Shown here in pieces: positions 13,310-21,628 of a stretch of 40,566 bases of DNA. The position numbers and the translations under genes are program-made. Every line of letters starts with the position of its first letter. Within the stretch, counting starts at the first letter, position 1. Below the pieces are notes generated by a model. The model was not told the origin of the DNA and did not search any database. It saw nothing but the letters and a program-made list of their open reading frames with translations. Source of the DNA: Myxococcales bacterium (GTDB lineage: Bacteria > Myxococcota_A > Polyangia > Polyangiales > Houyiibacteriaceae); NCBI GenBank assembly GCA_029862185.1, contig JAOTXX010000039.1:1-40566 (forward strand). Reading direction: 5' to 3'.

Positions 13310-13385
13310 TGGCTCCAGCGATAGGACTCGAACCTATGACCAAGCGATTAACAGTCGCCCGCTCTACCAACTGAGCTACGCTGGA
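13310..13385 (-). tRNA. tRNA-Asn (anticodon GTT)
   Basis: The minus strand folds into a 76-nt cloverleaf with an encoded CCA. The acceptor stem is TCCAGCG (13385-13379) pairing with CGCTGGA (13320-13314), discriminator G, then CCA at 13312-13310. The D arm has GCTCAGTTGGTAGAGC, the anticodon loop CTGTTAA places GTT at 13352-13350, and the T arm has GGTTCGAGTCC. It lies alone between ackA and a convergent SDR gene. No integrase or duplicated 3' end is seen nearby, so it is not acting as an integration site in this window. Confidence 0.97.
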
Positions 13386-19038: not shown

Positions 19039-19464
19039 ATGCGTGCAAAGTGGATTGGGTTGCTCATTGGATTGATCGTTGGGATTTCGGGCTGCACCCC
19101 GAAGGAAGCCGCGCCCACTGAGCCCAAGGCTGCAGAGCCCGCACCTGCTCCGGCCCCTGCCGAGGAACCCGCGGTCGACCCGGTCGCGGCGGCTTCGGAG
19201 ATTTTCCAGAGTCGATGCATCGTTTGCCATGGCGAAGGGGGCAAAGGGGACGGCGCCGGCTCGGCCGCACTCGACCCGAAGCCACGGGATTTCACGTCCC
19301 CAGAGTGGCAGGACTCGGTCACGGACGAGCACCTTCGCAAGATCGTCATCTACGGCGGCTCCGCCGTCGGCAAGGCTGCGACGATGCCTGCAAACCCGGA
19401 CCTGGACGCGAAGCCGCAAGTGGTCGCCGAGCTCGTGAAGTACGTTCGTGGCCTTGGGAAGTAG
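19039..19464 (+). CDS. Lipoprotein c-type cytochrome, likely electron donor to NosZ
   Basis: A 141-residue monohaem cytochrome c. Lipobox ISGC with Cys19, then a Pro/Ala/Glu-rich tether (about 22-48), then a class I cytochrome domain with haem motif C60-I-V-C63-H64 and a probable axial Met116 in KAATMPANPDLD. The fold end is VAELVKYVRGLGK. Strong AGGAGGG precedes the ATG. Clade II nos clusters often carry small c-type cytochromes next to nosZ, so a role passing electrons to the CuA site of NosZ is a reasonable inference. A 193-bp structured gap separates it from nosZ. Confidence 0.88.
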   Translation: MRAKWIGLLIGLIVGISGCTPKEAAPTEPKAAEPAPAPAPAEEPAVDPVAAASEIFQSRCIVCHGEGGKGDGAGSAALDPKPRDFTSPEWQDSVTDEHLRKIVIYGGSAVGKAATMPANPDLDAKPQVVAELVKYVRGLGK

Positions 19465-19558
19465 CCCGACTTGTCGTGCTATCTGGCGTAGTTATTGCAA
19501 CCCGCTTCGGCGCAGAAGGCTCCGGCTCAGCCAGAGGGCCACGCTTGAGACAGTTGTT

Positions 19559-19644
19559 CTCTCCCCGTTCTGAGGAGAGTGGTGTAAAGAGCGCCCCGTT
19601 CGCTGGGGGGGCTCGTTTGGAGGATTTCCCTTTCGCTGAGGGAA
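19559..19644 (+). promoter_or_regulatory. Three consecutive hairpins in the nosZ leader
   Basis: Hairpin 1: CTCTCC (19559-19564) with GGAGAG (19574-19579), loop of 9. Hairpin 2: GAGCGCCCC (19589-19597) with GGGGGGCTC (19606-19614), one mismatch. Hairpin 3: TTCCCT (19626-19631) with AGGGAA (19639-19644), loop TTCGCTG. The loops are spaced 31-34 bases apart and share GTTC/TTCGCTG cores, and each unit is followed by GGAG- or GAGG-rich sequence, the last one being the nosZ Shine-Dalgarno. This could be an mRNA stability/processing element, attenuator or protein-binding leader. Confidence 0.5.
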
Positions 19645-19657
19645 TTGAGGAGATGTA

Positions 19658-21628
19658 ATGAAGTTCAACAGGATTGGTGCGTTTGGCGCATCAAGTATCG
19701 GGGTTCTGTTGGCTGCGATGGTCTGCATCGGATGCGGCCCACAGCAGACAGCACAGGTGTCACAGGCTCCCGCGAGCTCCACCGCCGACTTGATGAAGCA
19801 GCGCGGGCTCAACGAAGCCGACGTGAGTGCGGCACTTCAGACCTACACGCCCACCGGCAAAAAGGACACGTACCTGACCTTCGCGTCGGGCGGTCACGGC
19901 GGCAACATGATCGTCATCGGCGTCCCGTCGATGCGAATCTTGAAGTACGTCGGCGTCTTCACCCCGGAGCCTTGGCAGGGCTACGGCTACGGTGACCAGT
20001 CTAATGCTGTCCTCGAAGGAGGCAGCCGTTTTGGCAAGGACATGACCTGGGGTGACATGCACCATCCGGCGCTCTCCGAAACCAACGGTGAGTACGACGG
20101 CAAGTTCGTCTTCGTAAACGACAAGGCGAACGCCCGCATCGCGGTCGTCGACCTGCACGACTTCGTCACCAAGGAGATCGTGACCTCGCCGCTCATTCAG
20201 AGCGACCACGGCGCGACCTTCGTGACACCGAACACCGAGTACGTCATCGAGTCGAGCCAGTACCCGGCTCCTCTCGGCGGTGGCTACGCACCGATCGAGG
20301 AGTATCAGGATAAGTACCGCGGCGCGGTGATCTTTTGGAAGTTCGATCGCGAAAAGGGGAAGATTGATCGCTCGAAATCCTTCGCCATGGAGCTTCCGCC
20401 GTACATGCAGGACCTCGCCGATGCTGGAAAGCTCGCAAGCGAAGGCTGGGTGTTCATCAACTCGTTCAACACGGAGATGAGCTGGGGTGGCACCTTGGAA
20501 GGCAACCCGCCCATGGAGTCGGGCGCTTCCCAAAACGACATGGACTACCTGCACATCATCGACCTCAAGAAGGCCGAGGCTGTCTACGAGGCTGGCAAGA
20601 CGACGAAGATCGCGGGCATGGACGTCATCTCGCTCGAGACCACCAATGCAGAGGGTCTTTTGCACCTCGTTGGCGAGCCGAAGAGCCCGCATGGCGTGGA
20701 CATCACGCCAGATGGCAAGGAGCTCGTGGTTTCGGGGAAGCTCGACACGCACGCCACGGTCTACAGCTTCGAGAAGCTCAAGGGCCTCATCGACGCCAAG
20801 AAGTACGACGGGAAAGACCAGTACGGCATTCCGATCCTTCCCTTTGCCGACAGCATTCGAGGCCAGGTCGAGATCGGCCTTGGTCCGCTTCACACGCAGT
20901 ACGACGACAAGGGCAACGCCTACACCTCGGTCTTCATCGAGTCTACGGTCGCAAAGTGGTCGCTCAAGGACCTCAAGATGCTCGAGAAGGTCAAAGTGCA
21001 CTATAACGTCGGTCACATCGTGGCGGCCGAGGGAGACACCGTCAGCCCCGATGGTGGGTACCTGATTGCGATGAACAAGTGGGCACTCGATCGCTTCTCG
21101 AAGGTTGGTCCGCTGCTTCCGCAGAACTTTCAGCTGATCAACATCAACAGCGAACCGATGCAGCTCCTCTACGACATGCCGCTTCCACTTGGCGAGCCGC
21201 ACTACGCTCAAATGATCAAGGCCGATAAGCTCAAACCCGCCGACGTTTACAAGCCCGCTGGCTACGACGTCGTCACCGACAAGCCCAATCCCAATGCGGT
21301 CACCGCGGGCAAGGAGCGTATCGAGCGCGAAGGCAAGGACGTACACGTCTACATGACCTCGGTGCGAAGCCACTTCACCCCGGACATCGTCCGTGTGAAG
21401 AAGGGCGACACGGTCCACCTGCACATCACCAACGTGGAGCAGGCCCACGATGCAACCCATGGTTTCACCGTCGGCTCGTACAACGTTCACAGCAGCCTCG
21501 AGCCCGGCAAGCACGTCGACATCACGTTCTTGGCGGACAGAGAGGGAACGTTCCCATTTTACTGCACTGAGTTCTGTTCGGCCCTCCACCTCGAGATGGC
21601 GGGCTACCTCTTGGTGGAACCCAGTTGA
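19658..21628 (+). CDS. nosZ: Nitrous-oxide reductase, clade II (Sec-type)
   Basis: Periplasmic reduction of N2O to N2; 656 residues. All seven CuZ histidines can be assigned: H135 and H136 (DMHHP), H184 (SDHGA), H345 (SPHGVD), H412 (GPLHTQ), H453 (VGHI) and H515 (GEPHY). The C-terminal cupredoxin domain has the CuA ligands H601, C636, C640, H644 and M647 (CTEFCSALHLEM). The beta-propeller lies between about 75 and 540. The N-terminus has no twin-arginine motif: MKFNRIGAFG leads into a hydrophobic stretch ending CIGC, so export is by Sec and lipidation at Cys26 is possible though the lipobox is imperfect. This is the clade II (atypical) form. GAGGAG precedes the ATG. Confidence 0.97.
   Translation: MKFNRIGAFGASSIGVLLAAMVCIGCGPQQTAQVSQAPASSTADLMKQRGLNEADVSAALQTYTPTGKKDTYLTFASGGHGGNMIVIGVPSMRILKYVGVFTPEPWQGYGYGDQSNAVLEGGSRFGKDMTWGDMHHPALSETNGEYDGKFVFVNDKANARIAVVDLHDFVTKEIVTSPLIQSDHGATFVTPNTEYVIESSQYPAPLGGGYAPIEEYQDKYRGAVIFWKFDREKGKIDRSKSFAMELPPYMQDLADAGKLASEGWVFINSFNTEMSWGGTLEGNPPMESGASQNDMDYLHIIDLKKAEAVYEAGKTTKIAGMDVISLETTNAEGLLHLVGEPKSPHGVDITPDGKELVVSGKLDTHATVYSFEKLKGLIDAKKYDGKDQYGIPILPFADSIRGQVEIGLGPLHTQYDDKGNAYTSVFIESTVAKWSLKDLKMLEKVKVHYNVGHIVAAEGDTVSPDGGYLIAMNKWALDRFSKVGPLLPQNFQLININSEPMQLLYDMPLPLGEPHYAQMIKADKLKPADVYKPAGYDVVTDKPNPNAVTAGKERIEREGKDVHVYMTSVRSHFTPDIVRVKKGDTVHLHITNVEQAHDATHGFTVGSYNVHSSLEPGKHVDITFLADREGTFPFYCTEFCSALHLEMAGYLLVEPS

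Follow-up and report, generated by a model that had tools for sequence, protein, structure and literature searches.

What do the stem-loops in front of a nitrous-oxide reductase gene do, and are they more than chance inverted repeats? The question is raised by a myxobacterial locus in which the short stretch between a lipoprotein cytochrome gene and nosZ can form three hairpins, here called A, B and C (Table 1). The window, that is, the whole stretch of DNA that was analysed, has 40,566 nucleotides and comes from a genome of 4.29 Mb in 169 contigs, and among named organisms those nearest to it by nosZ are metagenome-assembled "Deltaproteobacteria/Myxococcales" (L019-L022; L numbers denote loci or their leaders, G numbers genomes). 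Downstream of nosZ in the window lie nosD and ABC-transporter genes. Elsewhere in the window there is a tRNA gene (13313-13385, minus strand; RF00005, 71 bits).

The hairpins and the predicted leader in the window

The three successive stem-loops that the first-pass annotation had described are all present, and the genus comparison given below confirms them. Their even spacing also holds, with centres (positions counted from the nosZ ATG) exactly 33 and 33 nt apart instead of the 31-34 that had been claimed, and the loops do carry the GTTC and TTCGCTG sequences. The purine run said to follow each hairpin is found in the window; it is not general, since leader L008 has no such run between B and C. 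Hairpin C can also be written as the inverted repeat TTCCCT-N7-AGGGAA.

Table 1. Features of the cytochrome-nosZ region of the window
Feature	Position	Strand	Remarks
Lipoprotein cytochrome c gene, upstream of nosZ	19039..19464	+	PF00034, PF13442
Candidate sigma54-type -24/-12 promoter motif TGGCGTAGTTATTGCA (GG-N10-GC), just 3' of the cytochrome stop codon	19484..19499	+	sequence motif
Predicted 148-nt 5' leader of the nosZ transcript	19510..19657	+	inferred from the motif
Hairpin A, CTCTCC-CCGTTCTGA-GGAGAG (N9 between arms)	19559..19579	+	centre 19569 (-89)
Hairpin B, GAGC(G)CCCC-GTTCGCTG-GGGGGCTC	19589..19614	+	arms GAGC-G-CCCC/GGGG-GCTC; centre 19602 (-56)
Hairpin C, TTCCCTTTCGCTGAGGGAA	19626..19644	+	arms TTCCC(T)/(A)GGGAA; centre 19635 (-23); directly 5' of the SD
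Shine-Dalgarno sequence (SD) GAGGAG of nosZ	19647..19652	+	GGAG at -9 in 13/13 leaders
nosZ, Sec-dependent (clade II) nitrous-oxide reductase	19658..21628	+	TIGR04246, 850.6 bits (cut-off 625)

Taken as one sequence alone, the array is only mildly unusual and makes a weak case. Of 2000 dinucleotide shuffles, 26 contain three hairpins at 31-35 nt spacing, and so do 78 of the 4042 161-nt segments of the contig. The folding energy of the leader lies near the shuffle mean (z of 0.74 for 19500-19675 and -1.07 for 19550-19660); being no better than that of shuffles, it counts against reading the array as hairpins coupled to the SD. The predicted folds count against this reading as well. For the full predicted leader of the window, the minimum-energy fold has B one base off its comparative register, and the 5' arm of hairpin A pairs with the SD, which is mostly paired (0.25 unpaired). 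Leaders in which B and C are near-identical copies (L004, L006, L007, L018, L110) are predicted to reach their energy minimum as a single long stem that pairs B with C, in place of two hairpins. By eye, a segment AGCGA(A/G) just past the first hairpin of L005, L006 and L110 complements the UUCGCU loop of the later hairpins, and loop-linker pairing is possible in these leaders.

Where the transcript would begin is suggested by a motif that follows the cytochrome stop codon. An exact TGGC-N7-TTGC, the -24/-12 layout of sigma54 promoters, is conserved in 11 of the 13 genus leaders compared, against 0.054 of 13 expected from mononucleotide shuffles, and L003 and L006 have variants of it. The sigma54 DNA-binding domain (Sigma54_DBD, PF04552) is found in 17 of the 19 genus genomes, the window's own included, and in all nine of the well-assembled ones. 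The motif in the window may thus act as a sigma54 promoter. The start was placed 12 nt past the C of the -12 GC, at 19510, and a leader beginning there would hold all three hairpins. A start downstream of the third hairpin, which the first-pass annotation had named as evidence against its proposal, is not what the motif predicts. No sigma54 activator gene was recognised among the 29 window ORFs scanned, and the cytochrome gene shows no peak of synonymous conservation that would mark enhancer sites within it.

Some further observations concern sigma54-like motifs and their surroundings. In L003, L004, L006, L007, L017, L018 and L110, a short inverted repeat of the type GCGC-N4/6-GCGC spans the predicted transcription start of nosZ. 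The same sigma54-like motif (TGGCGTAATTATTGCA / CGGCGTAATTATTGCA) also precedes another conserved gene on the minus strand, at about 1500 in L140 (G002) and L129 (G006), which by eye is presumably a CDP-alcohol phosphatidyltransferase-like membrane protein; right after the motif comes the inverted repeat GGCGCGTATGCGCC, or part of it, which resembles the GCGC repeat at the predicted transcription start of nosZ. At a distant deltaproteobacterial nosZ (L054), a near-perfect sigma54 motif, TGGCACGCTCGTTGCA, lies shortly upstream of the start.

Copies, position and selection across the genus

nosZ is present in 14 of the 19 genomes of the genus. The 13 leaders compared comprise 12 from these 14 genomes, leaving out those of G001 and G018, whose contigs begin within nosZ, plus the leader of G015, whose contig stops just past it. 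The set is diverse, because nosZ identity is 84-97% in those loci whose match covers all or almost all of the length. In one locus, L009 (G008), nosZ is broken early (126 codons and then a stop; one TAG in the match), which is likely a sequencing error in a single-contig genome of 66% completeness. From the cytochrome stop to the nosZ start the gap measures 82-196 nt, and these gaps share no more than a motif resembling a promoter past the cytochrome stop codon, one or more hairpin units, and the SD.

Each leader holds one to three hairpin copies. Hairpin C is the most constant of them: its 19 nt (TTCCCTTTCGCTGAGGGAA) stand identical beside the SD in 9 of the 13 leaders, and L004 and L007 carry a variant. 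Hairpin B has a counterpart in 11 of the 13. A third copy of like kind occurs in L002 and L017, and in diverged form in L110; as for hairpin A itself, L017 has it at the corresponding place and L110 again in a diverged form, and L004-L007 can form one more hairpin, near -97 to -100, whose loop is different. The idea of the first-pass annotation that these are diverged tandem copies of one unit is borne out by G006, G005 and G015, which hold two perfect tandem copies of the 17-mer CCCTTTCGCTGAGGGAA. The two most diverged NosZ, on the deepest branches (L010 and L011), have a single diverged hairpin only, which counts against the explanation that we favour below.

The placement of the copies is informative. 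The centre of the SD-proximal hairpin is at -23 in 12 of the 13 leaders and at -22 in L010, whereas its distance from the predicted transcription start ranges from 18 to 125 nt. As the distance to the SD is fixed and that to the promoter variable, the element is tied to the ribosome-binding site and not to the promoter. Between B and C, the spacing in 11 leaders is 33 nt in seven, 34 in two, 32 in one and 31 in one.

The unit is also confined to one gene and one genus. Among 183 genomes of the order, the exact 17-mer occurs in 11, all of this genus and all in nosZ leaders. Outside the genus, no hairpin array was seen by eye at 75 nosZ loci (L023-L097, 73 of them with a start) or at the sister-genus locus L145; at many of these loci the gap between the cytochrome gene and nosZ is short. 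A scan of viral contigs for the unit found nothing, and Rfam gave no leader match at the gathering score or at E values up to 5. We also considered and rejected a dispersed repeat of the REP or MITE type. With up to one mismatch, a 15-mer occurs at 29 places in the 19 genus genomes, of which 16 belong to nosZ leaders and 13 do not, compared with 8 for the reversed-pattern control; the 13 are single-mismatch places, and none of the contexts inspected by eye shows an array or a layout of SD plus start. In the same 19 genomes, the top places of a covariance model (R1) are all nosZ leaders, as they must be by construction, because the model was built from these hairpins; the best other place scores 24.4 bits (G005:C794), and ten weaker places were inspected by eye.

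Selection on the hairpins can be read from two kinds of comparison. Over 28 genome pairs, mean identity is 0.91 in hairpin C versus 0.58 at four-fold degenerate nosZ sites, and with L010 and L011 included (45 pairs) the values are 0.77 versus 0.55. Covariation was measured on 17 distinct hairpin units and 8 pairs, in an alignment where paralogous copies of one leader stand as rows of their own and of which MAFFT displaced three rows. Four of the eight stem pairs have changed on both sides. Double-change cells number 12, against a shuffle mean of 4.3, a value reached by 1 of 500 shuffles, and the covariation score is 0.328 against a mean of 0.242, reached by 3 of 500. Moreover, the hairpin register outdoes every slid register in cells paired, double-change cells and score. 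Two of the five measures are not above shuffles (double-change pairs, 79 of 500; pair types, 355 of 500), and these, together with the paralogous rows, count against the explanation by SD-coupled hairpins. Single cases illustrate the pattern: L002 and L017 clearly differ at one stem pair of hairpin B (C-G as against U-A), although a run of G in the L002 hairpin permits a register slip, and L008 has a wholly different B stem that is fully paired.

The first-pass annotation had staked its hairpins on compensatory changes in relatives, and such changes are seen. They support compensatory evolution mainly for B, with C held by its sequence. Since the single-sequence evidence is weak, it is the comparative evidence that confirms the hairpins, and on these alignments we regard the three as confirmed to be real and kept by selection.

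Level of action and alternative explanations

Two of the functions proposed earlier, CsrA-like binding and attenuation, are not supported. CsrA/RsmA targets present ANGGA in hairpin loops. The loops here read GTTCT, TTCGCT and TCGCT, with GGA confined to arms and linkers, and CsrA (PF02599) is found in 0 of 19 genus genomes, with 3 of 14 controls positive, so that the suggested CsrA-like binding is discarded. A target of Hfq-dependent small RNAs was rejected likewise (PF17209 in 0 of 19 genus genomes; 5 of 14 controls positive). Intrinsic attenuation lacks support in that no terminator-like site was found in the leader (19465-19657, plus strand). For the dependence on copper or oxygen that the first-pass annotation had also suggested, the analysis turned up evidence neither in favour nor against, whereas its third suggestion, stabilisation of the transcript, is retained as a candidate. 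A resemblance to a CueR-like box was dropped, the half-site spacing of such boxes being different.

With CsrA, Hfq and a terminator not found, what remains is an element that would work at the RNA level, at the ribosome-binding site. We think, with a probability of about 0.6, that a tandemly duplicated, SD-coupled RNA hairpin modulates the initiation of nosZ translation and/or the stability of the transcript. The nosZ transcript would start at the sigma54-type promoter between the cytochrome gene and nosZ, and its 5' untranslated region would carry one to three tandem hairpin units, the last one docked at a set distance upstream of the SD. The SD-proximal hairpin would set the access of the 30S subunit to the SD and/or protect the message against degradation, an effect that the copies further upstream may reinforce.

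As C keeps arms and loop exactly, and B chiefly the ability to pair, the readout may well be sequence-specific in part, through an RNA-binding factor. Because C is constrained beyond pairing needs, a factor that reads the sequence is plausible, and it might act with either sign. A tentative extension would make the hairpin with the UUCGCUG loop the operator of an RNA-binding regulator of nosZ translation, with the copy number tuning the strength of control; this would be in a lineage without recognisable CsrA and Hfq.

The main rival does without any reader. The hairpins would be passive stabilisers or spacers of the 5' untranslated region, which block the entry of ribonucleases and keep inhibitory pairing off the SD. 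The copy number of one to three suits this explanation, as do the arms and loops of A and B, which drift with pairing kept, and several hairpins are reported, in passages of PMC7509114, to protect the message of the puf operon. The preservation of all 19 nt of C in 9 of the 13 leaders, beyond what pairing needs, speaks against it, and we hold it to be doubtful, slightly more so than the operator.

Since 33 nt equal 11 codons and one frame reads FPFAEG, we also considered that the repeats belong to a coding upstream mini-ORF reaching over the start of nosZ, which would yield a leader peptide and couple the two translations. In its favour, 33 is divisible by three, most leaders keep the frame open across B and C, third codon positions make up three of the four variable columns of C, and L010 has an ATG mini-ORF, preceded by GGAGGG, that shares TGATG with the start of nosZ. 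Against this, B-C spacings of 31, 32 or 34 break the frame in 4 of 11 leaders; in L003, L005 and L110 no in-frame ATG, GTG or TTG occurs from the predicted start to C; another frame is open equally long in several leaders; the changes in B follow pairing, several being non-synonymous; and the columns just 5' of C have no codon bias. We judge a coding origin improbable, and it keeps even that small share because the L010 mini-ORF is credible. This GTG/ATG mini-ORF occupies -38 to -2 of the L010 leader, and in L011, the other deep-branching leader, the matching frame runs from -39 in phase into nosZ.

The inverted repeats might instead be binding sites on DNA, past the promoter, for a protein that represses or activates. 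The symmetry of TTCCCT-N7-AGGGAA and the sequence constraint on C would suit a bound protein, and 33 bp is near three helical turns of DNA. The position is fixed to the SD and not to the promoter (+18 to +125), and the arms of B switch to other complementary pairs (GCGCCTCT/AGAGGCGC, GAGC..TCCC/GGGA.GCTC), changes that keep the pairing and so fit a hairpin and not a fixed protein site on DNA; we judge DNA binding a shade more improbable than coding.

ANTAR antiterminator RNAs have two hairpins with 6-nt loops, with A1 and G4. Antitermination of this type, as by NasT on the Bradyrhizobium nosR leader, has a precedent in its favour, since passages of PMC6759348 describe a nos leader whose hairpins are read by an ANTAR protein, and is very improbable here, given loops of 5 or 7 nt (UCGCU / UUCGCUG), the need for a terminator that the leader (19465-19657, plus strand) does not offer, and an ANTAR domain that was found in none of the 19 genomes of the genus, though in none of the control genomes either.

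Significance and relation to known systems

Organisms with clade II nosZ are a major biological sink for nitrous oxide. In the literature searched, nothing was found on post-transcriptional control of clade II nosZ, and the matches listed for nosZ leaders, promoters and sigma54 include no report of this hairpin element. The narrow cis-RNA element is new; its general kind is already known. It is specific to nosZ, shows covariation, comes naturally in one, two and three copies, and has a predicted sigma54 promoter before it. It thus opens the post-transcriptional control of N2O reduction to concrete tests, in a genus where neither CsrA nor Hfq is recognisable.

Of known designs, the thrS translational operator of E. 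coli has tandem hairpins just 5' of the SD, with 7-nt loops, and the nosZ leader is like it in both respects. Stabilisers of the ompA type have their hairpin within a few nt of the 5' end. Like the multi-hairpin stabiliser of Rhodobacter puf and the 5' stem-loop of E. coli ompA, as treated in passages of PMC7509114, the leader has hairpins in a non-coding stretch of the transcript, several in the case of puf; unlike in both, the hairpin here is repeated, conserved in sequence and set directly against the SD.

As to the promoter, the passages concerned in a comparative regulon study of nitrogen-oxide metabolism (PMC1274295) link sigma54 to NorR targets, not to nosZ. The Bradyrhizobium diazoefficiens nosR leader, according to passages of PMC6759348, forms a terminator that is opened by NasT, and NasT hairpins of Paracoccus nasA are treated in parts of PMC5424462. 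The nosR case likewise places hairpins in a leader of the nitrous-oxide reductase gene cluster; unlike it, the nosZ leader described here has no terminator, odd-sized loops, a hairpin tied to the SD, and a genus in which ANTAR was not found. For CutF/CutO of Rhodobacter capsulatus, the relevant passages of PMC9973294 describe a stem-loop that shields the SD, which is freed via a stalling nascent protein. There too, an intergenic stem-loop lies beside the SD of a copper enzyme gene, whereas in the nosZ leader the hairpin ends just short of the SD and a cytochrome gene lies upstream.
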